From contig NZ_JAAKEL010000025.1 of assembly GCF_011039205.1 (NCBI RefSeq), positions 1-40,668 of the forward strand: 40,668 nucleotides of DNA, given 5' to 3'. Below the pieces are notes generated by a model. It was not told the origin of the DNA. It worked only from the letters and a program-made list of their open reading frames with translations, and searched no databases. Positions 15,952-36,108 of this stretch are shown piece by piece. The stretch is from Dysgonomonas sp. ZJ279 (lineage in GTDB: Bacteria; Bacteroidota; Bacteroidia; Bacteroidales; Dysgonomonadaceae). How positions within the stretch are numbered: the stretch's first letter is position 1; each line of letters opens with the position of its first letter. A program made the translations under genes and the position numbers.

Positions 15952-16854
15952 ATGATAAATCTAGAATGGTTCAGAACTTTCAAAACAATATACGAAACAG
16001 GGTCTTTAACGTCTGCTGCAAACAAACTTTATATATCTCAACCGGGAGTCAGTCTTCATCTGAATTCGTTAGAAGCGCATGTAGGAAACAAGCTTTTCGA
16101 TAGAGGTACACGTAAAATGCTGCCAACCGAGCATGGTAAAATGTTATATAATTCGGTTGTGGACGAAATAAAAAAACTGGAAACTATCGAGAGGCATTTT
16201 TCTCGTAATTGCCATGCTAATAAAACCGGAATAAGTATAGGAATGTGTTTCGAGACATTTCAGTTTGTTCTCGAGCCTTATATAAGTAAGCTGCCTTTTA
16301 ATCTTATTTCCAAATTTGGCGATTATTTCGATATGTTGAATGATCTTGACAAAGGGCTTCTCGACTTTGTTATTACACCACAAAAGGATGATGCACTGAA
16401 TATTTTATTTACACCCTTTTCAAAAGAACGTATTATTGTGATTGCAGGCTCTGAAAACGATGTGTCTGAGTTTAGTGATATACTTATATCTAATGGAAAG
16501 GATTGTGAGGATTGGCTTAATAAGCAGCAGTGGTTTGGCACTACAGGCGATATGGAACATCTGCGAAACTTCTGGGTGCAGAACTTCAATAAAAGACCTG
16601 ATTTTAAACCGAACTTTATAGTGCCTAATATGAGTTCTATTATTCGATGTATCTCCGGTCGCGAAGGCTTTGCTGTTGTGCCTGATTTCCTGTGCAGAAA
16701 ACAAATTGAAAACGGTGATATTCAAATTGTATGGGAGGGTAATAAGCCATTGGAGAATACTTTATATTTTGCACAGAGAAAGAAGACTATTTATACCGAG
16801 GAGCTAAAGGTGTTGCAAGATATTTTTACGAAAGAGTTAAAGAACGGAATTTGA
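15952..16854 (+). CDS. LysR family transcriptional regulator
   Basis: This 300-residue protein has an N-terminal winged HTH at about 1-60 (WFRTFKTIYETGSLTSAANKL, then ISQPGVSLHLNSLE). A C-terminal periplasmic-binding-protein-like effector domain covers about 85-295. The start at 15952 gives the family's usual short lead before the HTH. It is transcribed away from the mdaB/aldo-keto reductase pair with both promoters in a 111-bp gap, the standard arrangement for a LysR regulator controlling its divergent neighbours. The effector is unknown; a quinone or electrophile is a guess from the target genes. Confidence 0.92.
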   Translation: MINLEWFRTFKTIYETGSLTSAANKLYISQPGVSLHLNSLEAHVGNKLFDRGTRKMLPTEHGKMLYNSVVDEIKKLETIERHFSRNCHANKTGISIGMCFETFQFVLEPYISKLPFNLISKFGDYFDMLNDLDKGLLDFVITPQKDDALNILFTPFSKERIIVIAGSENDVSEFSDILISNGKDCEDWLNKQQWFGTTGDMEHLRNFWVQNFNKRPDFKPNFIVPNMSSIIRCISGREGFAVVPDFLCRKQIENGDIQIVWEGNKPLENTLYFAQRKKTIYTEELKVLQDIFTKELKNGI

Positions 16855-16910
16855 TAAATATTTTGCTAATAAAGCAGCATTTAGACACTTTATATACAAT
16901 TATAATTAGG

Positions 16911-16918
16911 TATCTTTG
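16911..16918 (+). promoter_or_regulatory. -7 box just before the methyltransferase ATG
   Basis: TATCTTTG matches TAnnTTTG exactly, and the only plausible ATG (16925) is 6 nt further on. Transcription would then start at or next to the ATG, giving a leaderless or nearly leaderless mRNA. No good -33 TTG is seen. Confidence 0.5.
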
Positions 16919-16924
16919 CAGTAT

Positions 16925-17635
16925 ATGGACAACAAATCTACGATAGAAGACATAAGGAAGAGGTTCGACAAAGATGTTGAGAGATTCTCCAATCTCGAAA
17001 CCGGGCAAGTTTCGACTATTGATGCAAATATTTCACTCGAATTAATTACAGAATCGGCAAAAAGGCTAAGGCCTCAGGCCGAAAATCTTTTAGATGTCGG
17101 GTGTGGTGCCGGAAACTACACACTAAAGATGCTTTCTAAATTGCCCGATCTAAATTGTACACTTTTAGATTTAAGTCTGCCTATGTTGGAAAAGGCACAA
17201 GAAAGAGTTTCGGCTGAAACAAAAGGTACTGTTGAAATCGTTCAGGGTGACCTTCGTAAAGTTGAATTGCCTGTCAAACACTATGATATTATTCTTGCAG
17301 GAGCAGTTTTGCATCATCTTAGGGACGAATCGGATTGGCTTTTTACGTTTTCGAAACTACACCGTTTGTTGAAACCGGGAGGATGTTTGATGATCTCTGA
17401 TCTTATAGTTCAGGATTCTGATGTTTTGACAGCTTATATATGGGAAAAATATAGTGATTACTTAATCGAAGTTGCCGGAGAGGAATACAAGAATAAAGTT
17501 TTAGAATATATCGAGATAGAGGATTCGCCTCGCTCTTTGAATTTCCAACTTGATCTGATGAAGAATACAGGCTTTAGGAAAGTTGAGGTTTTACATAAGA
17601 ATCTTTGTTTTGCTGCGTATGGTGGTATAAAATAA
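16925..17635 (+). CDS. Class I SAM-dependent methyltransferase
   Basis: This is a 236-residue cytoplasmic methyltransferase. Motif I LLDVGCGAGNYT (55-66) binds S-adenosylmethionine. A motif II acidic residue follows in LLDLSLPMLEKA. GDLRKVELP and the post-motif AGAVLHHLRDE are typical of the Methyltransf_12/25 group. The frame opens at a TTG at 16916, inside a promoter-like box, so ATG 16925 is chosen. It stands alone between the LysR gene and a convergent glycosidase operon. The substrate is unknown, since neither the C-terminal half nor the neighbours point to one. Confidence 0.85.
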   Translation: MDNKSTIEDIRKRFDKDVERFSNLETGQVSTIDANISLELITESAKRLRPQAENLLDVGCGAGNYTLKMLSKLPDLNCTLLDLSLPMLEKAQERVSAETKGTVEIVQGDLRKVELPVKHYDIILAGAVLHHLRDESDWLFTFSKLHRLLKPGGCLMISDLIVQDSDVLTAYIWEKYSDYLIEVAGEEYKNKVLEYIEIEDSPRSLNFQLDLMKNTGFRKVEVLHKNLCFAAYGGIK

Positions 17636-17662
17636 TAGAACGGGAATTTGCAATATTATAAA

Positions 17663-17690
17663 AAAAGGAGGTAATTAATTACCTCCTTTT
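17663..17690. terminator. Bidirectional terminator
   Basis: A perfect 14+14 palindrome (AAAAGGAGGTAATT and its complement) lies between the rightward methyltransferase gene (ends 17635) and the leftward GH95 gene (ends 17710). It has T-runs after it on the plus strand (TTTTCCTTTTTTG) and on the minus strand. Confidence 0.85.
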
Positions 17691-17709
17691 CCTTTTTTGT
17701 TATGCCGAT

Positions 17710-20133
17710 TTAAATAAATTGAATTCTTACAATCTCATCCTTTTCTACAGGAATTACTATAAATTCATCGTTGGTATTTACCAATTCTGTTTTCCCTTTT
17801 TTTGTTATTTCAGTTTTGGAGATGCCAGCAGGTATTTTTATTTTAAATTCACTTTTCGAATGAGCTTTTATATTCATTTTGTTTGGTTTTGAATCAGTCC
17901 AATCCAGATCGATCTCTCCATTTCCGCGCACACATAATCCTGAGAAATTTCCATCTTTCCAACCTTTTGGTAAAGCCGGTAGTAGCTCAATATAACCCTG
18001 ATGGCTTTGCACAAGCATCTCTGCAATACCTGCTGTACCACCAAAATTTCCATCGATCTGGAAGGGTGGGTGGGCACAAAACAGATTATCATACGTTCCA
18101 CTTGAACTATTCATCGATATTGAATTACTCTGAGTTGGACTCAATAGCTTTTGCAGAGAAACGAATGCTCTTTCGCCATTGCCCAACCGTGCCCAGAAAT
18201 TCATCCTCCATGCCAAAGACCACCCTGTGCCATCCTCGCCTCTGCCGTTTATAGTTGCTCGCGCAGCATTTTGAAGTTCGGGTGTAGATGAATTTATCTC
18301 ATCACCGGGATAGAGTCCCCAAAGATGCGAAATATGACGATGTTTAGGTTCTACTTCCTTATATTCTTCGAGCCACTCCAGTAATCGCCCGTCTTTTCCG
18401 ATTTGGTTAGGAGGGAGTAAAACAATTGCATCTTTCAGCTTTTTGCGAAGCTTCTCATCTTTGTTGAGCTCAGTGGAAGCCTCTATCGTCTTAGAAAATA
18501 AGTATCTCACTATCTGGTTATCCATAGTTGGGCCCATACATACATGCGCCTGCTGTCCGGTTGGCATTATGAAAGCATTTTCGGGAGAACTGGATGGTGC
18601 TGTTACGAGCCATCCATGAGAGGGTTCTTTGATCATTGTGCTGAGATAGAATTCAGCAGAGCCTTTGATGATTGGATATAATTTCTTCAAATACTCTTTG
18701 TCTTTTGTATATTCGTAATGATTCCAAAGCATTTGGCATAGCCATGCCGATCCCGAATTAAAAGAACCCCATGTATACTCTTCACCGGGAGATGTATATC
18801 CCCATATATTTGTAATAACATGTGCTACCCAACCGTCACCTGAGTAATAGGCTTTTGCTGTTTTTTCGCCGGAGGGCACAATGCTTTTCACCAAGTCGAA
18901 AAATGGTCCGTTTAAAGCCCCCAGATTAGTCACATTAAGAGGAAAGTGGTTCATTTGGATATTGATGTTCAAATGATAATCACCGTTCCATGGTGTATTT
19001 ATTTCGTTAGCCCATAGTCCTTGCAGATTAGGGGGTAAAAGCCCTGGTCTTGTGCTCGAAATCATGAGGTACCTGCCGTATTGAAAATAAAGAGAAATTA
19101 ATCCATTATCATTTGGACTGGTAGCAAATGCCTCTAATCGTTTATCGGTCGGCAGATCATATTTGTCTATACCCCCTATATTGATGTCTGCTCTACCGAA
19201 TAATGTCTGGAAGTTTTTAGTATGTTCTATCTTTTCTCTATTATAGTCTACTTTTTGGGCAATCTCTAACTTTTTCTGCGAAGATTCCAAATAGGACGGG
19301 TTTTTATAATCAGTAGCAATGGAAATATAGATTGTTGCTTCATCGGCATTTTCTACTTGCAACGATTTATCTTTCGCTATTACTCTGCCCCCTTTAGGTT
19401 TAATCTCAAGGCGGGTGATATATTTCATTCCATTTCCATCGATACCATTGTTTAGCTGTCCCGACATTTGTAATTGATTGTCTTCAGTCTTTACTGCGAA
19501 ATTTTCGGGGCGGTCGAGAGATGCCGAGAAATTAATTTTATTTTTGCCGTTAGCCGTATAATGTATAATAATTACATCATTATCGAAGCTGGCGAGATAT
19601 TCGCGGGTATATTTGGTATTATCAATCGAGAATTCTGTTTTGGCAATCGCATCATCCAATACCAAATCTCTATAATAGTTTTGCACTTGTATTTTAGATG
19701 AATCAATTCCGTAATTATAGTCGATCAACAAATCTCCCACTAACTGAAAAGAGCCATAAGGAACATTAGCCCCATTGCCCAAGCCCGATCCTTTTCCAAG
19801 ACAAATAAAGTTTTTGCCCATCACTTCTTGCGCTGATATATTTTTGCCTTCCAATAGTAGCTTTTGTATTGTAGGCAGATGTTTAAACGCCTCCGGATTA
19901 TCAGCATTCTGAGGGCTGCCCGACCATAAGGTGATATCGTTCAATACAATCTTTTCGTGCGAAACACCTCCATCAGGCATTGCACCTAAGCGACCATTGC
20001 CTAATGGTACACATGCTTCCCACCGTGATGCCGGCTTGTCGTACCATAGTTTGTATGGCTTCTCTTTGGCCGTTGCAGATAAACAAAAACACGATAGAAT
20101 GAAGCAGGTTAGTATATTTGAGTATATTTTCAT
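17710..20133 (-). CDS. Glycoside hydrolase family 95 (alpha-L-fucosidase / alpha-L-galactosidase)
   Basis: This 807-residue exported enzyme has a signal peptide of about 22 residues (ends SATAKE), an N-terminal GH95 beta-domain starting KLWYDKPASRWEACVPLGNG and an (alpha/alpha)6 catalytic barrel. The catalytic set known from Bifidobacterium AfcA is recognisable: Asn389 and Asn391 in NINIQMNH, Glu518 in SSSPENAF and Asp694 in FQIDGNFGG. The family inverts alpha-1,2-linked L-fucose, or in some members L-galactose, on galactose. It is 26 bp downstream of a GH2 beta-galactosidase gene on the same strand, so the two would strip Fuc-Gal caps in sequence. Fucosylated xyloglucan side chains or host H-antigen-like glycans are candidate substrates. 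No SusC/SusD pair adjoins. Confidence 0.94.
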   Translation of the reverse strand: MKIYSNILTCFILSCFCLSATAKEKPYKLWYDKPASRWEACVPLGNGRLGAMPDGGVSHEKIVLNDITLWSGSPQNADNPEAFKHLPTIQKLLLEGKNISAQEVMGKNFICLGKGSGLGNGANVPYGSFQLVGDLLIDYNYGIDSSKIQVQNYYRDLVLDDAIAKTEFSIDNTKYTREYLASFDNDVIIIHYTANGKNKINFSASLDRPENFAVKTEDNQLQMSGQLNNGIDGNGMKYITRLEIKPKGGRVIAKDKSLQVENADEATIYISIATDYKNPSYLESSQKKLEIAQKVDYNREKIEHTKNFQTLFGRADINIGGIDKYDLPTDKRLEAFATSPNDNGLISLYFQYGRYLMISSTRPGLLPPNLQGLWANEINTPWNGDYHLNINIQMNHFPLNVTNLGALNGPFFDLVKSIVPSGEKTAKAYYSGDGWVAHVITNIWGYTSPGEEYTWGSFNSGSAWLCQMLWNHYEYTKDKEYLKKLYPIIKGSAEFYLSTMIKEPSHGWLVTAPSSSPENAFIMPTGQQAHVCMGPTMDNQIVRYLFSKTIEASTELNKDEKLRKKLKDAIVLLPPNQIGKDGRLLEWLEEYKEVEPKHRHISHLWGLYPGDEINSSTPELQNAARATINGRGEDGTGWSLAWRMNFWARLGNGERAFVSLQKLLSPTQSNSISMNSSSGTYDNLFCAHPPFQIDGNFGGTAGIAEMLVQSHQGYIELLPALPKGWKDGNFSGLCVRGNGEIDLDWTDSKPNKMNIKAHSKSEFKIKIPAGISKTEITKKGKTELVNTNDEFIVIPVEKDEIVRIQFI

Positions 20134-23250: not shown

Positions 23251-25185
23251 ATGAGAAAAATGATACATGCAGAAGAACAAGAATCAAACTGTTGCGGATG
23301 TAGTCAGAACGATGGTTCGGAACGAACATGGAGGATATATGCTCCTGCCGTGTTGAGCTTTATATTATTACTTATAGGTATTGCTTTTGATAATTATATA
23401 CAGAATAATTTCTTTACAGGTTATATCCGACTGATATGGTATCTCGTTGCCTATATTCCGGTTGGATTTCCCGTTATAAAAGAAGCTGTGAAAGCAATTA
23501 TGCAGAAGGACTTCTTTAATGAGTTTTCGTTGATGAGTATTGCTACCCTGGGGGCTTTCTCTATTGGCGAATATCCCGAGGGGGTTGCTGTAATGCTCTT
23601 TTATAGCATTGGTGAATTATTTCAGGAATCGGCAGTCAATAAAGCAAAGAACAATATCAAAGCATTATTGGATATTCGACCCGATTCAGCTTCTGTTTTG
23701 CGCGATGGTCGTTATAAAACTGTATCGCCCGAAAGTGTGGCTATTGGTGAAACGATTCAAGTAAAGGTCGGAGAAAAAGTGCCTTTGGACGGAGTTTTAT
23801 TGTCGGCTCAAAGTACCTTTAATACATCAGCCTTGACAGGCGAAAGTAGGCCTAAAACAATCAGAGAAGCGGAGAACGTTTTAGCGGGTATGGTAAATTT
23901 AGATAATGTAATTGAAGTAAAAGTTGGAAAAGAATATTCAGATAGCTCTTTAGCCAAAATTCTCGAAATGGTTCAGGATGCTACATCAAGAAAAGCCAAG
24001 ACAGAACTGCTGATAAGAAGATTCGCTAAAATATATACTCCGATTGTGTTTCTTTTAGCTTTGCTGATTACTATTGTACCTTACTTCTTAGTCGATGATT
24101 ATTCGTTTAAAGATTGGTTGTACCGTGCTTTGGTTTTTCTTGTTATTTCATGCCCTTGTGCCTTGGTCATTTCTATACCATTAGGATATTTTGGTGGGAT
24201 AGGAGCAGCGTCGCGAAACGGCATCTTGTTTAAAGGTGCAAACTATTTAGACCTTATGACAAAAGTGAATACAGTGGTGATGGACAAAACGGGCACACTC
24301 ACCAAAGGAGTGTTTAAAGTGCAGAATATAGTTTGTCTAGACTATGATGAACGAGCCTTTATGGGTATTGTTGCAGCTTTGGAAAGTCACTCTAATCATC
24401 CAATCGCAAAAGCCATTGGCGAATATAGAGGAAAATCAGAGAGAAAGCATGTAGTAGCAAATGTGAAAGAGATTTCCGGCTATGGACTTCAAGGGGAGGT
24501 AGATTCTAAAAATGTTTTAGCCGGCAATTCTAAATTGCTGCAAAAATACAATATCGATTATGATAGAAATATTGACACTCTTGTCGAAACGGTTGTAGTG
24601 ATTGCCATCGATAATAAATATAGCGGATATATTACTGTTGCCGATGAGGAGAAAGAAGATGCTGCTTTAGCTATCAGCGAGATGTATAAAAACGGTATTA
24701 AACAGACTGTGATTCTAAGCGGTGACAATATGTCTATAACACAACAGCTGGCCGAAAGGCTAGGCATCAAAGCAGCTTATGGCGATTTATTACCCGAGGA
24801 TAAAGTAGGGTATATTGAAAATCTGAAAGCAGATAAATCGAATGTTATAGCCTTTGTTGGTGATGGCATTAACGATGCTCCGTCTCTAGCGCTTAGCGAT
24901 ATAGGAATAGCTATGGGAGGTATGGGGAGCGATGCTGCTATCGAAGTAGCGGATGTCATCATTCAGACAGATCAACCTTCTAAGATTGTAACCGCGATAA
25001 AGATTGCAAAGTATACAAAGCAGATTGTTGTTCAGAATATTATTCTTGCTTTTGTGGTGAAAGCTTTGGTCTTAATACTTGGGGCGGGCGGACTTGCTAC
25101 AATGTGGGAAGCTGTGTTTGCAGATGTTGGCGTAGCACTGCTTGCTATATTAAATGCGGTACGAATTTTAAATAAGAAGTTTTAA
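23251..25185 (+). CDS. Heavy-metal P1B-type ATPase (Zn/Cd/Pb exporter type)
   Basis: This 644-residue inner-membrane efflux pump has a short N-terminal tail containing CCGC (Cys14, 15, 17) in place of a full HMA metal-binding domain, so it is shorter than E. coli ZntA (732). Visible P-type features are TGES (actuator, near 197), the SCPCALVISIP transport motif with Cys301 and Cys303, phosphorylation site DKTGTLTKG (Asp345), an HP locus (SNHPIAKAI) and GDGINDAP (537-544). CPC followed by ALVIS, with a Lys in the penultimate helix and Asp in FADVGVALL, fits subgroup P1B-2 (Zn2+, Cd2+, Pb2+) rather than copper. It is monocistronic, with a terminator at 25220. The palindrome at its promoter suggests metal-dependent control. 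Confidence 0.94.
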   Translation: MRKMIHAEEQESNCCGCSQNDGSERTWRIYAPAVLSFILLLIGIAFDNYIQNNFFTGYIRLIWYLVAYIPVGFPVIKEAVKAIMQKDFFNEFSLMSIATLGAFSIGEYPEGVAVMLFYSIGELFQESAVNKAKNNIKALLDIRPDSASVLRDGRYKTVSPESVAIGETIQVKVGEKVPLDGVLLSAQSTFNTSALTGESRPKTIREAENVLAGMVNLDNVIEVKVGKEYSDSSLAKILEMVQDATSRKAKTELLIRRFAKIYTPIVFLLALLITIVPYFLVDDYSFKDWLYRALVFLVISCPCALVISIPLGYFGGIGAASRNGILFKGANYLDLMTKVNTVVMDKTGTLTKGVFKVQNIVCLDYDERAFMGIVAALESHSNHPIAKAIGEYRGKSERKHVVANVKEISGYGLQGEVDSKNVLAGNSKLLQKYNIDYDRNIDTLVETVVVIAIDNKYSGYITVADEEKEDAALAISEMYKNGIKQTVILSGDNMSITQQLAERLGIKAAYGDLLPEDKVGYIENLKADKSNVIAFVGDGINDAPSLALSDIGIAMGGMGSDAAIEVADVIIQTDQPSKIVTAIKIAKYTKQIVVQNIILAFVVKALVLILGAGGLATMWEAVFADVGVALLAILNAVRILNKKF

Positions 25186-25285: not shown

Positions 25286-25307
25286 AAATACCATGGATAT
25301 GGTATTT
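25286..25307 (+). promoter_or_regulatory. Operator-like palindrome overlapping the -33 region of the sORF operon
   Basis: Perfect 9-bp arms AAATACCAT and ATGGTATTT flank GGAT. The right arm ends 20 bp before the TAACTTTG -7 box, so a protein bound here would cover the -33 element (TTTC at 25305-25308, spacer 19). This is the position of a repressor site. The cognate regulator is not in the window. Confidence 0.6.
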
Positions 25308-25327
25308 CTCATGCTTTTAAAGATCAA

Positions 25328-25335
25328 TAACTTTG
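25328..25335 (+). promoter_or_regulatory. -7 promoter box for the leader-ORF operon
   Basis: TAACTTTG matches TAnnTTTG. Transcription would begin near 25341, about 38 nt before the small ORF's first ATG (25379) and nearly 400 nt before the first large gene. This leaves a long leader. Confidence 0.65.
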
Positions 25336-25378
25336 TACAACAAAAATAAACAGTTGGCAGAATTAATCTAAAAGAAAA

Positions 25379-25561
25379 ATGTTTATGAAAATCCTATTCA
25401 AAACTCCCGAACGATTGCGGCCTTCTTCTCAGAAGATATTTGCCGCTTTTAAGAGACGCGAAGTTTCCAGTTCTACTATTCCTTCCACAACTACTCCTTC
25501 CCCTTTCTGTACTATCCTTTCTCCCTTTTCTATGCGAATGTGCTGCTGTCGCATGTACTAA
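25379..25561 (+). CDS. Candidate cysteine-sensing leader peptide ORF ending MRMCCCRMY
   Basis: This small ORF encodes 60 residues from ATG 25379 (58 from ATG 25385; an ATG at 25532 would give only the 9-residue tail). Its end has three consecutive Cys codons (TGC TGC TGT, 25541-25549), then Arg-Met-Tyr-stop. The codons before them, 25471-25531, contain 24 C and only 1 G in 61 nt, a C-rich, G-poor tract like Rho-utilisation sites. ATGCGA (25532-25537) and TCGCAT (25549-25554) form a small hairpin with the first two Cys codons and most of the third in its loop. The ORF follows a good promoter box and precedes the binding-protein/SusCD operon by 174 bp. The peptide has no recognised domain. A regulatory uORF is proposed; translation is unproven. 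Confidence 0.55.
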   Translation: MFMKILFKTPERLRPSSQKIFAAFKRREVSSSTIPSTTTPSPFCTILSPFSMRMCCCRMY

Positions 25562-25735
25562 TCTATTTACATTTCCCGATTACATTCAAATTATTCTTTC
25601 ATAGTAAAGAGTAGTGACCTTTTAGTATTTCAAATATAGCAGAATAGTTAAGCTATATTGTATTTAAGCAATTGAATAATTAGTCTTTGACTCCAAAATA
25701 CCTGTACCGGATATATTTATTTTATAATAGAAAAG

Positions 25736-26665
25736 ATGAAAAAGTTAAGATTTATACCCCTATCCATATTACTGTCTTTTGTTTTATCCATATCAGCTCA
25801 AGAAAAGCAAAATGATGTTATTTATATTAAAGCCAGTAAATTCACTACCCCATTAATCCAAAAATGGATTGAAGGATATTCGAAAGAAAACAATCATGTG
25901 AAATTGGCATTAGCCGATAAGGAAACTAAAGCCGAAGATATCGATCTCGAATTTGTTACCACCGAATTGTCGAACGATGATTTGCATGGGAATCAACAAG
26001 TCGTTTATGTCGGTCGTTATGCCCTTTTGCCTATCACTACCCCACAAAATGCTCTGATCAGCGAATCGGGTGATAATAGATTCTCCAAAAAAGATATAGA
26101 ACAACTATTCTTCGAGAAAGATCTCTTGGATGAAGCAAATAAAAGAGCAAAAGAGAAATACAATGTAACCGTTTATTCCGGCAATAATAAAACATCGGTG
26201 TCTCTACTTTTTGCAGAGTATTTCGGATACAAGACTACTAATCTGAAAGGGAAAAAAGTATCGGGTGACGACCTTTTTTTATTGAATGCCATCCAAAAGG
26301 ATAACACAGGAATTACATTTAATACATTGAATTATATCTACGATGTTAAGACCCGCCACCTGAAAGAAAACATTGTATTACTGCCATTGGATATTAAGAA
26401 GGAATACCGACAAGCATTAGACGCTGCTGATATAGATCAGGTACTGTCTTTACTCGAAAATGAGTCGATAGACCTTATCCCAGTTCAGAATATCGGTTTT
26501 GTATATAACACCGAAAATAGTCTTGCACTTAATGGTTTCTTGAAATGGGTATTATCAGAAGGACAGCAACTCAACCATGACTATGGTTTTCTGAATCCCG
26601 ATAAAAAGACACTTGTGTCTCAAACAAAAAAAGTTGAAGACAAACTCCTAACTCTCACCAAATAA
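25736..26665 (+). CDS. PstS-like periplasmic substrate-binding protein
   Basis: This 309-residue exported protein has a signal peptide of about 21 residues (ends SISAQ). The rest resembles the type 2 periplasmic-binding fold of the PstS/PBP-like group: a first strand VIYIKASKFTTPLIQKWIEGY, a central VVYVGRYALLPITTPQNAL strand-loop, then FSKKDIEQLFF, which corresponds to the 'IFxG' helix of phosphate-binding proteins. No ABC permease or ATPase genes accompany it. It is the first large gene of an operon with SusC, SusD and TlpA-like genes. It may bind the imported solute in the periplasm or act as a sensor. The ligand is unknown, and the phosphate-binding label should not be taken literally. 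Confidence 0.7.
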   Translation: MKKLRFIPLSILLSFVLSISAQEKQNDVIYIKASKFTTPLIQKWIEGYSKENNHVKLALADKETKAEDIDLEFVTTELSNDDLHGNQQVVYVGRYALLPITTPQNALISESGDNRFSKKDIEQLFFEKDLLDEANKRAKEKYNVTVYSGNNKTSVSLLFAEYFGYKTTNLKGKKVSGDDLFLLNAIQKDNTGITFNTLNYIYDVKTRHLKENIVLLPLDIKKEYRQALDAADIDQVLSLLENESIDLIPVQNIGFVYNTENSLALNGFLKWVLSEGQQLNHDYGFLNPDKKTLVSQTKKVEDKLLTLTK

Positions 26666-26697: not shown

Positions 26698-26739
26698 AAG
26701 TGCTCCCATACCAATTTGCCGTCGGAGAAAGGAGCACTT
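26698..26739 (+). promoter_or_regulatory. Intercistronic hairpin between binding-protein gene and susC
   Basis: A perfect 9-bp stem (AAGTGCTCC/GGAGCACTT) has a 24-nt loop and lies 21 bp before the susC ATG. No T-run follows. It is a candidate mRNA processing or stability element that would set different expression of the binding protein and SusC, or a translation-control hairpin for susC. Confidence 0.5.
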
Positions 26740-26760
26740 GATCTAAACATAATTTAGAAT

Positions 26761-29700
26761 ATGACAAATATATTGAATTTTTTCAGGAACAATCTGTTGT
26801 TCCTGCCGGAGAAGAAACATGTTTATGTTTTTTTAGGACTCTTTCTTTTTTCTTCATTTAGTTTGTATAGCCAGACCTCGATACGAGGTAAGGTGATCGA
26901 TGAAAGAACAAATACACCTGTGGCAGGAGCGACCGTTGCTCTTAAGTCTACCACCGATGGTATATTGACAGGCTTGGATGGCGAATTTGTATTCACAACA
27001 AACAGGCAGCTTCCTGTTACATTGTCAATTAATCTTATCGGTTACAGAACTCAGGAGATTGATGTATATGATGCCGAAGAACCTATTATAGTAACAATTT
27101 CCGAGAATCTGAATATTCTCGATGAAATTGTAGTAGTCGGTTATGGTACAGCCCGCAAATCTACTTATACAGGTTCCATAGCTGTGGTCGGAAGCAAAGA
27201 TTTAGCAAAATTCCAGATAACGAATGTAACTAATGCCTTGCAGGGTACAGTTCCCGGACTTCAATCTATATCGTCTGCCGGACAGCCGGGTAGCGATGCC
27301 ACTATCTTTCTGAGAGGTGTGGGTTCGGTAAATGCGTCGAGTAATCCGCTATATGTTGTAGATGGAGTACCTTTTTCGGGGAGTATTAGCTCCATTGCAG
27401 CAAACGATATTCAGTCTATTTCCGTATTGAAAGATGCCACAGCGAGTGCCCTATACGGCTCGCGTGGTGCTAACGGTGTAATTATTATCACAACAAAACA
27501 AGGAACATTAAAATCGAAACCTGTGGTTTCTCTCTCAACACTTATCGGATTTACATCACGTGCGGTTAAAGATTATAAAACTTTATCTACTAACAACTAT
27601 TTCGAACTGCAATGGGAAGCCATTCGTAATAATCAGCTCGATCAAGGCAGATCGGGTGCTGAGGCGGCAGCTTATGCTTCGGGCGAAGTGGCAAATGCGT
27701 TGAAGATTAACCCCTATGGAACTAATTTCCCTAACCCTGTTGGAGCAGATGGCAAAATTGTAGCCGGAGCAACCCCTTTGTGGGATGATAGTTGGGGTGA
27801 ATCCCTATCTCGTACAGGAGTGCGTCAGCAAATAGACCTTAGTATAAATGGCGGAGGTGATAATTCAAAATATTTTTTCTCCGGAGGATACATTAAAGAA
27901 AAAGGCTTTATAATAGGCTCGGATTTTGAGCGTTTCAATGCACGTACCAATATTACGTCGAATGTAAACAAATGGTTAGAAACAGGCTTTGGTCTGGCAG
28001 CATCTACAAGTAGTCAAAGTTCTCCTCCCCAGACAGACAGCAATCAAGGTAACTATGCAAACTTCCAGCGTTTGGTCGCAGATATATACCCTGTATTCGA
28101 ACGCAATGCGGATGGTTCTTATGTACTGGATGCAGATGGTAATAAGGTGTATGATTTTGGTAATTATCGTCCGAGTTCTGCTGCAACAGGAAATAATCTG
28201 ATAGGCTCTTCTAAATATAATACATATGATAATAAGCAGGATATAGTTTCATTCCGCGCCAGTGCTGTAATTACGTTCCTTGATGGGTTAAAATTGAGAA
28301 ACAGTGCAAATGCTGATTATAGCAACCGTTCAACTCATTCGTATACAAATCCGGCATATGGTTCCGGTATCAGTAACGGTGGATCGGTAAGTAAAAGTGC
28401 AAACAGGTCTATAGGGTATACAGTAAACAGTTTTATCGATTACACCGCTAAATTTAATGAAACTCACTTTTTCAACATCTTAGCTGGTCCCGAAGTTTAT
28501 AGCTACAATGTTTCTACATTATCGGGAAGCCGTAGCAATTTCGGTTTCTTGGGAAAAGAAGAACCTGCTGCTGCTTCGTTGCTTAATAGCTTTACAGGTA
28601 TTGCCGACAATTATAAACTATCTAGTTTCCTTGCTAAAGTTGATTACGATTACCTACATCGTTATTATCTATCTGCCAGTTATCGCCGCGATGGATCGTC
28701 ACGATTCAGTAAAGAGTCGCGTTGGGGTAATTTCTGGTCGGTAGGTGCTTCTTGGAATGCAAAGAAAGAATCATTTCTATCGAATGTAAAATGGCTTGAC
28801 AACTTAGATTTAAGAGTAAGTTACGGAGCGCAGGGCAACGACAATCTGGGTACTTATTATGCTTATCAGGATTTATATTCTATCTATAATAGTTTAGGAC
28901 AAGCCGGATTGGTTAGTTCCAGACTACCAACACCCAATTTGAAATGGGAGACTAACTTAAACTTGAATTTCGGTCTCGATTTTGCAGCTTTCAATAACCG
29001 ACTTATTACCTCTATCGATGTTTTCGAAAGAAAATCACGAGACTTGTTGTTTAGCCGACCATTGGCACCCTCACTGGGATTTGGAGAAATAGATGCCAAT
29101 ATCGGTGCTCTTCGCAACAGAGGTATCGAAGCTCAGATAATAGTAGTGCCTGTCATAAATAAAGATTTGAAATGGGATGTAAACTTCAATATAGCCCATT
29201 TCAAAAATAAAATAACAGAACTGCCTCAAAAAGAAATTATATCGGGATCTATCGGTCAATTAGGTTCAACTAAGAAAATGACTGTTGGTGGATCGGTTTA
29301 CGATTTCTTTATCAGAGAATGGGCAGGAGTAGACCCTGCAAATGGTGATCCGTTGTGGTACAAAAACGAATATGCCACGGATGGCAATGGAAATAAAACT
29401 ATTACGGGACGTACTACTACAAACGTATATGCTGACGCCGATCAGTATTTTCAAGGAAGTTCTCTGCCCGATGTATATGGAGGTGTGACCAATACCGTGC
29501 GATACAAGAATTTTGAATTGTCATTTCTTATTTCGTATAGTATAGGAGGTAAAGTGCTGGATTTGGATGAGGTGATGATTGCCCATACCGGTAATAATCT
29601 TGGGCGTACATGGACAGAGGAAGCTCTTAATCGTTGGACTCCCGAAAATACACAGACCAACTATCCTCGTTTGACAACAACTACAACCAACTGGAACTCT

Positions 29701-29949
29701 ATTTCGTCCCGTTTCTTATACGATGCTTCGTACGCACGTTTGAAGAATATAAATTTTGTCTACTCTCTACCTAACTCGATATTATCACAATTGAGATTGA
29801 AAGATGTGAGGCTGCGGGTAAATGGAGAGAATCTCTTAACATGGTTCGGTCATAAAGGAATGGATCCGGAGCAATCTGTCGATGGTGTAACATATTACCG
29901 ATATCCGGCGCAGAAATCATTCTCATTTGGTTTAGATATAACATTTTAA
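26761..29949 (+). CDS. SusC/RagA TonB-dependent outer-membrane transporter (no STN domain)
   Basis: This 1062-residue outer-membrane transporter has a signal sequence with a long hydrophilic N-region (hydrophobic core about 22-36, ending LYSQ). It then has a carboxypeptidase-regulatory-like domain (about 40-118, TPVAGATVALKST), a TonB box DEIVVVGYG at 121-129, the plug (about 130-245, VLKDATASALYGSRGANGVI) and the barrel ending QKSFSFGLDITF. It lacks the STN domain of the other SusC in this window, so it is not expected to signal to a FecR/sigma pair; control probably comes from the promoter and leader at 25286-25735. With the SusD gene 12 bp downstream it would import a molecule too large or scarce for porins. 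The substrate is unknown; the operon suggests an amino-acid or peptide derivative. Confidence 0.95.
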   Translation: MTNILNFFRNNLLFLPEKKHVYVFLGLFLFSSFSLYSQTSIRGKVIDERTNTPVAGATVALKSTTDGILTGLDGEFVFTTNRQLPVTLSINLIGYRTQEIDVYDAEEPIIVTISENLNILDEIVVVGYGTARKSTYTGSIAVVGSKDLAKFQITNVTNALQGTVPGLQSISSAGQPGSDATIFLRGVGSVNASSNPLYVVDGVPFSGSISSIAANDIQSISVLKDATASALYGSRGANGVIIITTKQGTLKSKPVVSLSTLIGFTSRAVKDYKTLSTNNYFELQWEAIRNNQLDQGRSGAEAAAYASGEVANALKINPYGTNFPNPVGADGKIVAGATPLWDDSWGESLSRTGVRQQIDLSINGGGDNSKYFFSGGYIKEKGFIIGSDFERFNARTNITSNVNKWLETGFGLAASTSSQSSPPQTDSNQGNYANFQRLVADIYPVFERNADGSYVLDADGNKVYDFGNYRPSSAATGNNLIGSSKYNTYDNKQDIVSFRASAVITFLDGLKLRNSANADYSNRSTHSYTNPAYGSGISNGGSVSKSANRSIGYTVNSFIDYTAKFNETHFFNILAGPEVYSYNVSTLSGSRSNFGFLGKEEPAAASLLNSFTGIADNYKLSSFLAKVDYDYLHRYYLSASYRRDGSSRFSKESRWGNFWSVGASWNAKKESFLSNVKWLDNLDLRVSYGAQGNDNLGTYYAYQDLYSIYNSLGQAGLVSSRLPTPNLKWETNLNLNFGLDFAAFNNRLITSIDVFERKSRDLLFSRPLAPSLGFGEIDANIGALRNRGIEAQIIVVPVINKDLKWDVNFNIAHFKNKITELPQKEIISGSIGQLGSTKKMTVGGSVYDFFIREWAGVDPANGDPLWYKNEYATDGNGNKTITGRTTTNVYADADQYFQGSSLPDVYGGVTNTVRYKNFELSFLISYSIGGKVLDLDEVMIAHTGNNLGRTWTEEALNRWTPENTQTNYPRLTTTTTNWNSISSRFLYDASYARLKNINFVYSLPNSILSQLRLKDVRLRVNGENLLTWFGHKGMDPEQSVDGVTYYRYPAQKSFSFGLDITF

Positions 29950-29961
29950 AAAAGAACAGTC

Positions 29962-31443
29962 ATGAAATCGAAAATAATTATATACTTCGCGTTTATCTCT
30001 TTATTTACGCTCAATTCTTGTAGTGATGGGTTCTTTGAAACCTCGCCTTCGGACGATCTGACAGGTGATGAAACATACTCGACTGTCTCGAATGTTGATG
30101 CTGTTGTAAACGGCACATTACGCTATCTGATGGAAAGTGCCACATCGCAGGATAATCCTGGATATTCGGCCATTGTGCTGACTCAGGAAGTGATGGGCGA
30201 TGATGCTATCGCAAGGGATGGAGTCTATGGATTCAGGGATTCTTATCCATATCGAGATCCGTATGATAATACCACGCGTAGAGCTTTATTCTTCTGGACG
30301 CTACAATACAAAGTGATTGACAATTGTAATAATATTATTGCAAAAGTAGATGCTGCAAAAGGCGAAGAGGATCAGAAAAAATATATAAAAGGACAGGCTT
30401 ATGCTTTGCGTGCATTTGTGTATCTGAATCTGGTTCGTCAATACCAATTTACGTATGCTAAAGATAAAGCAGCTAAAGCTGTACCTATCTACACAGAACC
30501 TACTGTTCCAAGTTCAGTATCTAAATCGAGAGCTTCTGTCGAAGATGTCTATAACCGTGTGATCGATGATCTTACAGAAGCTGAAAAATTATTGACAGGC
30601 TTTAAACGTTCGGTAAAGAACCGTCCCGATATAAACGTAGTCAACGGACTGTTTGCCCGCACCTATCTTACTATGGAAAACTGGACTTTGGCCGCTCAAT
30701 ATGCCGCTAAAGCAAGAACGGGATATCCGATTATGCAGGCAGCACAATACCTTCAAGGATTTAACGATGTGAGCAATGTGGAATGGATATGGGGACATCC
30801 TCAAACAGCCGATCAGAATTTAGGGGGAGCATCTTATTTTGCCTATCTGGATGTGACACCTAATACAGGGTATCGCAGTATTATGCCCGATCCGTATTTT
30901 TATAACTTGTTCGACAAAGAGAACGATATTCGAGCATCACTTTTCGAAGGAGTAACCAATAGTTCAGACCCGTTGTTTCGCTGGTTGAAATATAAGAAAT
31001 TTGTAAATAAATCCGACAAATCGGCACATATCGTATTAATGCGTTCTTCAGAAATGGCTCTTATCGAAGCGGAGAGCAAAGCTCGCAACCACGATTTAAA
31101 TAGTGCGGTAACGGCATTGAATGAGATACGTCAGAATAGAAATCTATCAGCATTAACTGCTGCCAGCTTGAATGAAAGCCAATTGATCGAAGAAATTCTA
31201 CTCGAAAGGCGTCGTGAGCTTTGGGGTGAAGGTTTCCGCTTACAAGATATTCTGCGCCTTCAACGTGCCCCTGTAAGGAACGAATCTACGGAGACATACG
31301 ATACAGGAAACGGTACAATTGTATTAAGAGGGCATTATGTATGGACTTTTCCTAACAAAACAGAATTGGTTCCCAATAGTCCTTACTATCTTTTCTCAAT
31401 CCCTGTGACCGAAATTAATAACAATCCGAATTTAAATAATTAA
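29962..31443 (+). CDS. SusD/RagB family outer-membrane lipoprotein
   Basis: This 493-residue lipoprotein has the lipobox LNSC at about residue 20, followed by SDGFFETSP, a common SusD start. The helical repeat region includes GQAYALRAFVYLNLVRQYQ (about 150-168), and the C-terminal signatures RSSEMALIEAESKAR, LNEIRQNR, RRRELWGEGFRLQDILRLQR and YLFSIPVTEINNNPNLN are present. It caps the SusC barrel encoded 12 bp upstream. It is shorter than the other SusD in the window (596), closer to SusDs of non-polysaccharide systems. The TlpA-like gene starts 4 bp after its stop, so the genes are translationally close. Confidence 0.94.
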   Translation: MKSKIIIYFAFISLFTLNSCSDGFFETSPSDDLTGDETYSTVSNVDAVVNGTLRYLMESATSQDNPGYSAIVLTQEVMGDDAIARDGVYGFRDSYPYRDPYDNTTRRALFFWTLQYKVIDNCNNIIAKVDAAKGEEDQKKYIKGQAYALRAFVYLNLVRQYQFTYAKDKAAKAVPIYTEPTVPSSVSKSRASVEDVYNRVIDDLTEAEKLLTGFKRSVKNRPDINVVNGLFARTYLTMENWTLAAQYAAKARTGYPIMQAAQYLQGFNDVSNVEWIWGHPQTADQNLGGASYFAYLDVTPNTGYRSIMPDPYFYNLFDKENDIRASLFEGVTNSSDPLFRWLKYKKFVNKSDKSAHIVLMRSSEMALIEAESKARNHDLNSAVTALNEIRQNRNLSALTAASLNESQLIEEILLERRRELWGEGFRLQDILRLQRAPVRNESTETYDTGNGTIVLRGHYVWTFPNKTELVPNSPYYLFSIPVTEINNNPNLNN

Positions 31444-31447
31444 TATA

Positions 31448-32452
31448 ATGAGAAAGTATATATTATCAGCAATCGTATTTTCTTTAGCATTAGCATCGTG
31501 CGGAGAAAAAACAAAAAGTGGGTTGACAATTAATGGTGTAGTAGAGAACGTTCCTTCGGGAACAGTCTACTTGCAGAAGTTTAATAATAAGATGTATCAT
31601 GTAATTGATTCTGCAAAAATAGAAAATGGGCAATTCAGTTTTTCTAAAGAGGTAACATTACCCGAGATCTATGCTTTGTCACTAGATACAACTAAAAATT
31701 CGTTGCTGTTATTCCTAGATAATAATCCGGTAACAATCAAATTAGATTCATCGTCATATTATCGTAATAGTACAGTAACCGGGTCAGAGTTACAAGATTT
31801 GTTCGTTGCATATAAGGCACAAAAAGGCGTTGAAATCTCTGATTTTATCAAGCAAAATCCAAAATCTTTAGTCTCTGCTTATGTTCTGTATCGTGATTTT
31901 TCATATAGGTTATCTCCCGAAGAAATCAAATCAAATATCGCTTTGCTCGATTCTTCTCTATGGAATACTCCTTATGTAAAAACGCTTGAAGACCTAACCA
32001 AAACACTTGAAATAGTGTCCGTAGGAAAGGCGACTCCTGATTTTACAGCAAATAATACGGAAGGTAATCCCATAAAATTCTCCGATCAATTGGGTAAAGG
32101 TTATGTTTTGCTCGATTTCTGGGCATCATGGTGTGGTCCTTGTCGCAGAGAAAATCCAAATCTGGTAAAGGTGTATGATAAATACAAAGATAAAGGCTTC
32201 AATATTTTTGCCGTTTCGCTGGATAAGGATAAAAATGGGTGGCTGAAAGCTATTGAGAAAGATAATCTTACATGGACTCATGTTTCCGATCTTTTGTTTT
32301 GGGATAGTCAGCCCGCTAAATTATATGGAGTAAGAGCTATACCCGCTAATTTCTTAATTGACAAAGATGGAGTGATCGTTGCCAAAAATCTTAGAGGTGA
32401 AGAATTGGATAAAGTATTAAACGAATTTTTGACATCAAAAGAAAAGCTATAA
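31448..32452 (+). CDS. TlpA-like thioredoxin-fold lipoprotein with DUF4369
   Basis: This 334-residue lipoprotein has the signal MRKYILSAIVFSLALASC with Cys18. An N-terminal DUF4369-like beta domain (about 22-115, INGVVENVPSGTVYLQKF) and a linker are followed by a thioredoxin/AhpC-TSA domain (about 190-334). The redox motif WCGPC has Cys229 and Cys232, and the cis-Pro loop (AIPANFLID) is intact. It would reduce or exchange disulfides in the periplasm, probably fed by a CcdA-type membrane reductant. Its place directly behind susD, in an operon headed by a Cys-codon leader, suggests it may reduce an imported disulfide (cystine, oxidised glutathione or similar). That link is inference. Confidence 0.92.
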   Translation: MRKYILSAIVFSLALASCGEKTKSGLTINGVVENVPSGTVYLQKFNNKMYHVIDSAKIENGQFSFSKEVTLPEIYALSLDTTKNSLLLFLDNNPVTIKLDSSSYYRNSTVTGSELQDLFVAYKAQKGVEISDFIKQNPKSLVSAYVLYRDFSYRLSPEEIKSNIALLDSSLWNTPYVKTLEDLTKTLEIVSVGKATPDFTANNTEGNPIKFSDQLGKGYVLLDFWASWCGPCRRENPNLVKVYDKYKDKGFNIFAVSLDKDKNGWLKAIEKDNLTWTHVSDLLFWDSQPAKLYGVRAIPANFLIDKDGVIVAKNLRGEELDKVLNEFLTSKEKL

Positions 32453-32798: not shown

Positions 32799-34256
32799 AT
32801 GAAAAGAATATTATTTATATGTGTCTTGACAATCTTATGTCATAATATATATGCCCAAAAGAAGGATAAAAAGAATCCGTTAAATAATGCTGCCGTTGAA
32901 TACTTAAACAATTCATTCGCTGTTTATGACAAGTTGCAGAAGACTATATGGGCTAATCCCGAATTAGGATTTTTAGAAACAAACAGCTCGGCTCTTTTGC
33001 AAAAACATTTGCAAGAAAACGGCTTTAAAGTAGAGGCAGGAGTGGCTGGTATGCCAACTGCTTTTGTAGCAACCTATGGCTCGGGTAGTCCTGTAATAGC
33101 AGTTCTTGCCGAATATGATGCACTTCCCGGATTGTCGCAAGATACAGTTCCATACCGCAAACCATTGATAGAAGGCGGTAGTGGTCATGGTTGCGGACAT
33201 AATACCTTCGGAGTAGGCGCAGTAGCCGGAGCAATTGCCATCAAACAATGGCTCACTGCAAATAATCATGTGGGAACGATTAAGGTGTACGGAACACCGG
33301 CCGAAGAAGGTGGCGGTGGCAAGGTGTATCTTGTTCGTGATGGTTTATTTAATGGAGTAGATGTTGTGCTGGACTGGCATCCGGGTACAGGTAATCAGGT
33401 AACAACCGATACAGGCACAGCTATATTGATGGTCGATTATAGTTTCTTCGGAATAGCATCTCATGCAGGAGGTAGCCCCGATAAGGGACGTTCGGCTCTC
33501 GATGGTGTCGAATCAATGAACTATATGGTTAATATGCTTCGCGAACATGTTCCCATTTCATCGCGTATTCACTATGTGATAGCAAATGGGGGCGAGGCAC
33601 CGAATGTTGTACCCGACTATGCAAAGGTATCGTACTACATTCGCAGTCCTAAAAGAGAAATACTGAAAGACCTTGTAGAGTGGGTAGGACAGGCATCAGA
33701 AGGTGCGGCTTTAGGTACTCAAACCAAAGTAAAGTCTGAAATTATATCAGGGTTTTACGAAAAATTGAATAACCGTAAACTAGCGGAATTGGTTCAGAAA
33801 AATCTTGAAATAGTAGGAGGGGTTCATTACGATGCACGCGAAAGAGCTTTTGCAGAAGAGATTGTAAAAGGTCTTAATAAAGATATTGCCACATTGAAGC
33901 AGGCAGAAACAGTAAAACCGCTCGAAAACGAAAAGCCTTCTCTCGGTGGTGGTTCTTCCGATGTGGGCGATGTAAGTTGGGTAGTTCCTACTGTTACGTT
34001 CAATACAGCAACGTTTGTTCCGGGCAGTTCGGGTCATAGTTGGCAGAATGTAGCTTCGGGCGGTTCTACTATCGGAACGAAATCACTGATTAATACAGCT
34101 AAAGTATTTTCTCTTTCGGCAATTGATCTTTATACCGATCCGCAACTTTTGAAAGATATAAAAGATGAATTTGGAAAGAGGAGAGGAGCTGATTTCGAAT
34201 ATACTCCTTTGTTGGGAGACAGAGCCCCTGCACTAGATTATCGTGTGAAGAAATAA
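32799..34256 (+). CDS. Exported M20 family amidohydrolase (AbgB-like)
   Basis: This 485-residue M20-type metallohydrolase has a signal peptide of about 19 residues (ends NIYAQ), so it acts in the periplasm rather than the cytoplasm. Metal and catalytic residues are visible: Asp107 in AEYDALPG, His130 and His134 around Cys132 in GHGCGHN, Glu169/Glu170 in PAEEGGG, His194 in DWHPGTG and His413 in SSGHSW. The GHGCGHN signature is typical of the AbgB / aminobenzoyl-glutamate and IAA-amino-acid hydrolase branch, which cleaves N-acyl amino acids and related amides. A lid/dimerisation domain lies about 205-325. It sits between a TlpA-like gene and an amino-acid permease, suggesting it releases an amino acid for import. 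The substrate is unknown. Confidence 0.9.
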   Translation: MKRILFICVLTILCHNIYAQKKDKKNPLNNAAVEYLNNSFAVYDKLQKTIWANPELGFLETNSSALLQKHLQENGFKVEAGVAGMPTAFVATYGSGSPVIAVLAEYDALPGLSQDTVPYRKPLIEGGSGHGCGHNTFGVGAVAGAIAIKQWLTANNHVGTIKVYGTPAEEGGGGKVYLVRDGLFNGVDVVLDWHPGTGNQVTTDTGTAILMVDYSFFGIASHAGGSPDKGRSALDGVESMNYMVNMLREHVPISSRIHYVIANGGEAPNVVPDYAKVSYYIRSPKREILKDLVEWVGQASEGAALGTQTKVKSEIISGFYEKLNNRKLAELVQKNLEIVGGVHYDARERAFAEEIVKGLNKDIATLKQAETVKPLENEKPSLGGGSSDVGDVSWVVPTVTFNTATFVPGSSGHSWQNVASGGSTIGTKSLINTAKVFSLSAIDLYTDPQLLKDIKDEFGKRRGADFEYTPLLGDRAPALDYRVKK

Positions 34257-34458: not shown

Positions 34459-36108
34459 ATGGGATTATTCTCAACAAAAGCGGTAAGTGTTTTGCAGGCT
34501 GAAGCAAACGAAGTCGGTGCACATACATTAAAAAAAGTATTCGGTCCATACCGTTTGATAGCCTTAGGCTTAGGTGCCATTATAGGTGCCGGACTATTTT
34601 CGATAACAGGAAATGCTGCTGCCGATTATGCTGGTCCTGCCATTACATTATCGTTTATCATAGCTGCGGCTGGCTGCTGCTTTGCCGGGCTATGCTATGC
34701 TGAATTTGCTTCTATGATTCCTGTTGCAGGGAGTGCATATACCTATTCTTATGCAACTATGGGTGAATTTGTTGCTTGGATTATCGGTTGGGATTTGGTT
34801 CTTGAATATGCAGTCGCATCGGCTACGGTTAGTATCAGTTGGAGTAGGTATGTAGTCAAATTACTCGAAGGATTCGATGTTTATCTTCCTGTCGAACTCA
34901 CGGCTTGTCCGTGGGATGGAGGCATAATTAATCTTCCGGCAGCGGTAATAATTATATTGATGAGTTTATTACTAATACGTGGTACAGGTAACAGTTCTCT
35001 TGTGAATACAATAATTGTTGCATTGAAAATAGCTGTTGTTCTAGTTTTTATCATTCTAGGATGGAAATTTATCAACACAGATAATTATGTTCCTTTTATA
35101 CCGGAGAATACAGGTACATTCGGCGAATATGGTTTTAGTGGTATAATCAGAGCGGCAGCGGTCGTATTCTTCGCTTTCATCGGTTTTGATGCCGTAAGTA
35201 CTGCTGCGCAGGAAACCAAGAATCCGAAACGGAATATGCCGATTGGAATATTAGGCTCTTTAGCTATTTGTACTGTCTTATATGTTCTTTTCGCTCATGT
35301 TATGACGGGAGTTACTCCTTATACATCTTTCAAAGGGCACGATGGTATTGCACCCGTTGCGGTAGCGATAGAGAATATGGGTATAATGGGTGCAGACGGA
35401 GTTATTCAACCGGCCTATCCTTGGTTGAATAAAGCTATTATACTCGCTATATTGGCAGGTTATTCATCTGTTATTCTTGTTATGTTATTGGGGCAAAGCC
35501 GTGTTTTCTATAGTATGAGTAAGGACGGTTTGTTGCCTAAAGTCTTTTCAGGAGTACACAGTAAATTCAAAACACCATACAAGAGTAATGTGCTCTTTCT
35601 TATAGTAGTGAGTGTTTTTGTTCTTTTCGTTCCGGCTAGGGTTGCAGGCGAATTAACTAGTATAGGTACACTGTTTGCATTCATAATTGTATGTGCCGGG
35701 ATATTGATTATGCGAAGAAAAATGCCTGACTTACCCCGAGCTTTTAAAGTGCCATGGGTTCCCCTTATACCTATTCTGGGTATTGCTACATGCTTGTTTA
35801 TGATGGTGTTTCTACCATTTGATACTTGGATCAGATTGATTATATGGATGCTTCTCGGATTAGATATTTATATTCGTTATGGTCTGAAAAATAGCAAATT
35901 ACAGCAGCAGGGAAAAGGTGCGACAGATAAAGAAAAACGGACGCTTTATTTAATTACTATTGGTATTGCGGTTCTTCTAGGTAGTGTTGCTTTCATACAC
36001 CAATTGATCGAAGGTTGGGATAATGGAATAACGTTGTTTGTATTATCGTTATCACTTGCTGTTGTTCATATTGTGGGATACGGAGTTTTGGTTATTAGGA
36101 ATAGGTAG
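34459..36108 (+). CDS. APC superfamily amino acid permease
   Basis: This 549-residue inner-membrane transporter has about 12-14 membrane helices. The first helix has the substrate-binding signature LGAIIGAGLFSITGNAA (about 38-54), and helix 6 has FFAFIGFDAVSTAAQETKNP, which is diagnostic for the cationic amino acid transporter (CAT/YfnA-like) branch. It imports or exchanges an amino acid across the inner membrane. It follows the M20 hydrolase by 202 bp, and a weak -7-like CACTTTTG at 34420-34427 (one mismatch to TAnnTTTG) may give it its own promoter. Substrate cannot be told from sequence; the CAT branch carries basic and some small neutral amino acids. Confidence 0.93.
   Translation: MGLFSTKAVSVLQAEANEVGAHTLKKVFGPYRLIALGLGAIIGAGLFSITGNAAADYAGPAITLSFIIAAAGCCFAGLCYAEFASMIPVAGSAYTYSYATMGEFVAWIIGWDLVLEYAVASATVSISWSRYVVKLLEGFDVYLPVELTACPWDGGIINLPAAVIIILMSLLLIRGTGNSSLVNTIIVALKIAVVLVFIILGWKFINTDNYVPFIPENTGTFGEYGFSGIIRAAAVVFFAFIGFDAVSTAAQETKNPKRNMPIGILGSLAICTVLYVLFAHVMTGVTPYTSFKGHDGIAPVAVAIENMGIMGADGVIQPAYPWLNKAIILAILAGYSSVILVMLLGQSRVFYSMSKDGLLPKVFSGVHSKFKTPYKSNVLFLIVVSVFVLFVPARVAGELTSIGTLFAFIIVCAGILIMRRKMPDLPRAFKVPWVPLIPILGIATCLFMMVFLPFDTWIRLIIWMLLGLDIYIRYGLKNSKLQQQGKGATDKEKRTLYLITIGIAVLLGSVAFIHQLIEGWDNGITLFVLSLSLAVVHIVGYGVLVIRNR

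Follow-up and report, generated by a model that had tools for sequence, protein, structure and literature searches.

Met- and Cys-rich leader peptides ahead of SusCD-type operons in Bacteroidales, a candidate family of sulfur-amino-acid attenuators

Described leader peptides and the leader in the window

Cys-run leader peptides with possible Rho control were predicted in 2005 for the cys operons of Actinobacteria (Seliverstov 2005, PMC1262725), and cysteine-responsive attenuation has been described in mycobacteria (Canestrari 2020, as cited in PMC9031893 and PMC13236596). In Rhodobacterales, ribosome-mediated attenuation was proposed for the uORFC-8-2 motif, which lies before cysS (PMC8632094). 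CruR (DUF2946) is a copper-related uORF located before a TonB-transporter operon in Bordetella, where ribosome stalling is set against Rho acting on a C-over-G bubble (PMC9426467). No description of a Cys-run leader in Bacteroidota was found in the literature searched, from whose coverage most subscription journals fell out, and the main text of a transcriptome map of B. thetaiotaomicron does not contain the whole words "leader peptide" (PMC7366714).

In this study, a leader ORF was analysed in a stretch of 40,668 nucleotides from Dysgonomonas sp. ZJ279, referred to here as the window. Like the Actinobacteria leaders, as far as they are covered by the available text, it is a short reading frame whose Cys codons lie close to the stop, it has no conserved terminator hairpin, and Rho is proposed as the terminating factor (PMC1262725). 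A C-over-G bias recurs here, whereas the poly-Y motifs of Actinobacteria were not conserved according to the authors of 2005 (PMC1262725). Unlike the mycobacterial ORFs, which the citing papers describe as leaderless and located before cys operons, it combines Met with Cys codons, has a 5′ UTR and a conserved CGA-ATG pair, precedes a SusCD operon and belongs to another phylum. CruR resembles it in being a uORF before a TonB-transporter operon with stalling opposed to Rho (PMC9426467), but senses copper and, in the published sections available, carries a CXXC and a C-terminal RAPP arrest motif; the C-terminal element here is a Met/Cys run, and neither motif was seen by eye in the window leader.

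The features of the window are listed in Table 1. As the initial annotation had claimed, the ORF consists of 60 codons and ends in ...SMRMCCCRMY. The second ATG, giving 58 codons, may be the true start, since Met-Lys begins many of the relatives. The distance from TAACTTTG, which we take to be a Bacteroidetes-type -7 box, to the first leader ATG is 51 nt. The C-rich tract noted earlier inside the ORF was confirmed as well, and its C-minus-G value is the highest of any 61-nt stretch on both strands of the 40.7-kb window; a bias toward Ser, Thr, Pro and Leu could account for part of it. Both the leader ORF and the tract are thus real. No intrinsic terminator was found on scanning the window between the leader and the first gene, in agreement with the earlier reading, and the window had no match to Rfam families at gathering scores. 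When the leader peptide was used as query against the genome contigs, no relative was found.

Table 1. Features of the leader region and of the genes behind it (window positions)
Feature	Position	Strand	Remark or basis
-7 box TAACTTTG, taken to be Bacteroidetes-type; putative promoter of the leader transcript	25328..25335	+	sequence
Leader peptide ORF, ...MRMCCCRMY-stop	25379..25561, start possibly 25385	+	ORF call and Met/Cys leaders at homologous loci
C-rich, G-poor tract inside the leader ORF, rut-like	25471..25531	+	24 C and 1 G; base count
ATG CGA ATG TGC TGC TGT CGC ATG TAC: conserved CGA-ATG and presumed sensing Cys/Met codons	25532..25558	+	
Small hairpin ATGCGA/TCGCAT around the Cys codons	25532..25554	+	predicted fold
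C-over-G stretch directly 3′ of the leader stop	25562..25600	+	9 C and 1 G, counted by eye
Spacer from leader stop to first gene, 174 nt	25562..25735	+	no intrinsic terminator found
PstS-fold binding protein	25736..26665	+	no Pfam or NCBIfam family at E 0.001
SusC/RagA TonB-linked outer membrane protein	26761..29949	+	TIGR04056 above cut-off
SusD-family lipoprotein	29962..31443	+	
DUF4369 and TlpA/AhpC-TSA thiol-disulfide protein	31448..32452	+	
M20 amidohydrolase	32799..34256	+	TIGR01891 above cut-off
Amino-acid permease, possibly same operon	34459..36108	+	

The first gene of the operon encodes a protein whose structure model (pLDDT 78.6) was closest, among solved structures, to phosphate-binding proteins, with query TM-scores of 0.5-0.6. 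No sulfur-specific gene was present among the genes of the window operon. Just upstream of the leader, at window positions 23251-25185, is a gene for a heavy-metal P-type ATPase (cadmium family, above cut-off). A conserved hairpin with the loop CTCCGACGGCAA(A)TTGG was observed approximately 35 nt before SusC (window 26698-26740). The same hairpin occurs approximately 30-35 nt before SusC-type genes in L169, L177, L178, L179, L185 and L203; its orientation in the window and in L014 is opposite to that at the SusC-type loci, and the host genome contains its core pattern a single time.

Relatives of the leader and their two classes

The binding protein has relatives in 129 of 393 genomes of the order and, within the family, in 27 of 101. 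The comparison was made on 79 loci of named genomes, the best 79 of 386 confirmed stretches, with L127-L132 (24-26% identity) kept out of the counts. Among these, 72 binding-protein genes had at least 150 nt upstream (L054-L126, excluding L102 with 31 nt). Leaders matching a mechanical Met/Cys definition, which was fixed only after leaders had been inspected, preceded 35 of the 72 genes; the same definition found none in the 72 antisense regions and 6 among 382 other genes. The remaining 37 loci include L062, L072 and L091, where a shorter run was visible by eye. One of the six matches at other genes is a second leader (MRMCCMHTC...) before a second copy of the binding-protein gene in Bacteroides luti (L062, approximately 16800-18036), near the end of the first operon.

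The runs vary from MRMCCCRMY in the window to MRMSMCCC, MRMHCC, MRMCMPC, MRMCRCTLC, MRMCCHMS, MCCCMAMCM and MCMMCNCR. Six leader pairs were aligned as proteins; a single open frame is kept, with both ends conserved and the middle diverged. The differences summed over the six pairs amount to 57 at the first codon position, 64 at the second and 95 at the third. By this comparison the window ORF is a member of a conserved family of Met- and Cys-rich leader peptides that head SusCD-type operons in Bacteroidales. The Cys-run leader proposed earlier therefore stands as a conserved leader peptide, but the conserved element is the run of Met together with Cys, not Cys alone, and the Met codons had been overlooked. 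Such a run would correspond to the codons of the regulated amino acid in a classical attenuator.

According to what follows the run, the leaders were divided into two classes. Class I was found in Proteiniphilum, Fermentimonas, many Tannerellaceae MAGs and some other MAGs. Here an antiterminator segment, mostly within the ORF, comes after the Met/Cys run, and a strong intrinsic terminator lies just past the ORF; the antiterminator segment can pair with the 5′ arm of the terminator in place of the 3′ arm. In 17 of 22 class I pairs, the pairing of the leader tail with the terminator 5′ arm surpassed that of shuffled tails at p<=0.05 (300 mononucleotide shuffles, p uncorrected, loci partly related). 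Where a terminator was seen near a locus lacking a Met/Cys leader (L063, L070, L078, L084, L090, L110 and L125), it was not counted among the 22 pairs. L081, L093 and L094 were tabulated as class I operons although their hairpins had escaped the terminator scan; in L081 and L094 the hairpin can be made out by eye, and L093 was assigned by likeness of its leader only. Two leader-plus-terminator attenuators stand in tandem, approximately 215-265 nt apart, in L054, L056, L071, L076 and L083. Such a layout is that of a classical attenuator and suggests that codons are sensed. Tandem Cys codons with an intrinsic terminator are shared with uORFC-8-2, which differs in having two Cys codons, cysS as the target gene, an alphaproteobacterial host and, in the available text, no Met codons mentioned (PMC8632094).

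Class II comprises the window, other Dysgonomonas, Paludibacter, Mediterranea, two Tannerellaceae MAGs, Bacteroides luti and others, and in it the Met/Cys run is the C-terminus of the leader peptide. Thirty-four such leaders were collected, 24 through the binding protein (window included) and 10 through a motif search, the latter standing before SusC; motif counts are free of the search key only in the 24. A terminator-like site was detected in none of the 34 by a scan that overlooked two class I loci whose hairpins can be seen by eye, so that the intrinsic terminator with competing antiterminator, present in class I, appears to be absent from the window and the rest of this class. A TAnnTTTG box, presumably the Bacteroidetes -7 consensus, was located at most 95 nt upstream of a candidate start in 22 of the 34, counted without a shuffle control. 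The small hairpin around the Cys codons, which the initial annotation had pointed out, is present in the predicted fold of the window (region z = -1.2), but it is not kept as a structure in the relatives and was dropped as an operating part. No hairpin common to class II was found (mean z -0.8 over 34), and a GNRA-loop reading of CAU-GCGA-AUG was ruled out by eye, as it fails in L116 and L119.

A conserved feature of class II had been overlooked by the earlier reading, the codon pair CGA-ATG. An in-frame CGA near the leader end was found in 33 of the 34 leaders (23 of the 24 motif-independent ones), and the complete pair in 32, being missing in L062 and L085 (22 of the 24). CGA makes up 50 of 400 Arg codons in 19 long genes of the window and 906 of 9946 in the long open frames of the loci. 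The tRNA-Arg anticodons seen in the host were ACG, CCG, CCT and TCT (27 loci scanned of 30 fetched, 38 tRNA hits), and CGA is therefore probably read by inosine. Such reading of CGA is slow.

C exceeded G at -60 to -40 of the leader stop in 30 of the 34 class II leaders and at 0 to +20 in 28 of them; it did so in none within the last 20 nt before the stop, a G-rich bin that holds the Met/Cys codons. The corresponding counts in class I were 1/22, 5/22 and 1/22. The skew is strong in the Dysgonomonas and Paludibacter-like leaders. The initial annotation had staked its idea on conservation of the Cys run and of the C/G skew in homologous leaders; the comparison was run and the idea survives, though the short leaders L058 and L062 have no skew.

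Motif searches gave both further leaders and chance matches. The exact motif ATGCGAATGTGYTGY had 13 matches, the window included, in the 393 genomes of the order, as against 5 for the reversed pattern. In 4 of the 12 others (L193, L196, L197 and L203), the motif forms the end of an ORF, and the gene behind it is that of a sulfhydrylase, a binding protein or a SusC-type protein; no such gene adjoined the other 8. The loose motif ATGCGAATG-N0-6-TGYTGY gave 33 matches in 101 genomes versus 21 reversed. Inspection of 29 of its loci besides the window yielded 4 binding-protein leaders, 10 SusC leaders and 15 apparently unrelated matches; class II leaders directly before SusC, with no binding protein, thus occur in Dysgonomonas. 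In the host genome the CCC-stop pattern alone occurs 28 times versus 15 for its reverse, and no further leader of this kind was seen among the 28. A second host match to ATG-TGY-TGY-TGY-MGN (L002) was rejected as chance, being out of frame inside a 233-aa ORF. An exact ATG-Cys-Cys-Cys-Arg-ATG match (MCCCRM) was observed in another genus of the family (L033, G096:C58:2159).

Proposed switch and competing explanations

On the basis of the comparison we infer ribosome stalling, the identity of the signal and a Rho step. It is probable that the C-terminal Cys and Met codons of the leader gauge charged tRNA-Cys, together with tRNA-Met, and that stalling on them lets the operon be read. When sulfur amino acids are plentiful, the ribosome would complete the peptide and leave, and transcription would stop before the operon; under scarcity it would stall on the TGC TGC TGT and ATG codons and premature termination would be blocked. 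The operon, from the binding protein and SusCD to TlpA and the peptidase, would then be on and could serve in scavenging sulfur compounds or peptides. The class I switch would be a classical antiterminator and intrinsic terminator, and in class II the terminator would be Rho, loading on the C-over-G RNA on either side of the last leader codons, with the stalled ribosome and the queue behind it shielding these tracts. A comparable arrangement is that of tnaC/tna in E. coli, in which a leader ribosome stalled where the ORF ends keeps Rho from loading beside the stop codon; there, however, arrest depends on free tryptophan and a specific nascent chain, and the system is inducible, not driven by starvation.

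Rho-dependent termination at the window copy is plausible: Rho is favoured because no terminator was found, C exceeds G on both flanks of the last codons and the host genome encodes rho. The Rho route suggested earlier gains from the recurrence of the skew in most class II leaders, but it does not hold for the group as a whole, since many relatives use an intrinsic-terminator attenuator. A wider proposal, to which we give somewhat less than even weight, is that attenuation of SusCD operons by sulfur amino acids is dispersed in Bacteroidales, that homologous leaders have moved between the intrinsic-terminator and the Rho switch, and that the Rho switch is marked by the conserved slow pair CGA-AUG, which places the ribosome at the Cys run or makes it pause there, and by C-over-G RNA on both sides of the last codons.

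Other explanations were considered for the same features. In a mechanism of the mycobacterial polycysteine type, the stalled ribosome would open an RNA fold in which the first gene's start is masked, and there would be no premature termination. Such translational attenuation is attributed to the mycobacterial Cys-run leaders in the papers available (Canestrari 2020, as cited in PMC9031893 and PMC13236596), and several spacers of SusC-type class II leaders do form more stable folds than shuffled sequences. The leader end, however, paired with the next start region no better than expected by chance (2/34 at p<=0.05, the start of L019 being doubtful), and the class I relatives possess transcription terminators; we regard this explanation as unlikely. 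Less probable still is metal sensing by the nascent peptide. Cys, Met and His are typical metal ligands, and in a CruR-like switch Cys and Met residues would bind a copper-type metal, relieving arrest so that Rho stops transcription before the gene for the TonB-dependent transporter. CruR itself heads a TonB-transporter operon and uses a CXXC and Rho with a C-over-G bubble (PMC9426467, as far as its text was available), and the window has the P-type ATPase gene upstream of the leader. Against this, the class II run forms the last residues, which would presumably still sit in the ribosome tunnel, the class I run lies just upstream of the antiterminator segment, as codon sensing predicts, and a blastp comparison of 20 relatives with the window proteins labelled no relative of the P-type ATPase upstream of the leader, the upstream DNA of some being short.

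The possibility that the reading frame arose by chance and the Cys run is incidental could draw on the background of matches: the loose motif and the CCC-stop pattern are common enough in reverse, and none of the 28 host matches of the latter resembles another such leader. It is nevertheless highly improbable, as position, frame, Met/Cys run and CGA-ATG are conserved at homologous loci across genera. Codon sensing by the Met/Cys run is well supported by the comparison and remains the reading that we prefer.

Gene content of the operons and the sulfur link

The gene content of 54 leader-headed operons (24 class II binding-protein, 9 SusC-type and 21 class I; L185 was left out, its downstream region being cut by a contig end) was compared with that of 35 homologous operons with no assigned leader. 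The query proteins came from operons that have a leader, and several loci closely resemble one another or run off their contig; the counts in the 54 and the 35 were 17 and 1 for M14 peptidase, 13 and 2 for TlpA, 6 and 3 for SDF symporter, 6 and 1 for M20, and 5 and 0 for OsmC. TlpA and M14 go with the leaders. Among sulfur genes, a Cys/Met PLP enzyme was present in 3 and 1, a sulfatase in 3 and 2, and MetQ in 2 and 0. The presence of sulfur genes in some leader-headed operons agrees with the earlier reading, but they are not clearly more frequent there than in the leaderless homologues, and sulfur enzymes proper are too few for an enrichment to be demonstrated.

MetQ scored above its NCBIfam cut-off, while the Cys/Met PLP enzymes scored best with methionine gamma-lyase, below its cut-off. 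An O-acetylhomoserine sulfhydrylase (TIGR01326 above cut-off) lies behind an MRMCCCC leader in a genome of another family. The operons L206 (ROK and glycoside hydrolase) and L212 (catalase) are leader-headed and have no obvious sulfur gene. A PALP protein in L116 was dropped as a sulfur gene, being threonine synthase, and the SDF symporter as a cystine importer was unsupported, the one tested having no NCBIfam match at 1e-40. Sulfatase genes were observed downstream of SusCD in the leader-headed operons L085, L089 and L119, with a sulfatase-modifying factor in L085.

No PAPS-reductase-domain protein was found in the host genome, and all 14 control genomes were positive. Within the genus, 16 of 25 genomes had a match at E 0.001 and only 3 had one below 1e-40; the absence in the host is for this reason taken as background only. 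In L275 (G020:C262, 3247-9345, minus strand), a gene for a distantly related binding protein stands first in a cluster that also encodes two ABC permeases, an EF-Tu-type GTPase and two proteins with PAPS-reductase domains, a content that suggests a sulfate uptake and assimilation operon.

If the proposed codon sensing is true, Bacteroidota, which are common gut bacteria, would gain a switch that senses sulfur starvation. Sulfur amino acids or peptides would be suggested as substrates for SusCD systems usually assumed to be glycan importers, and homologous operons would offer a natural comparison between intrinsic and Rho-type termination.
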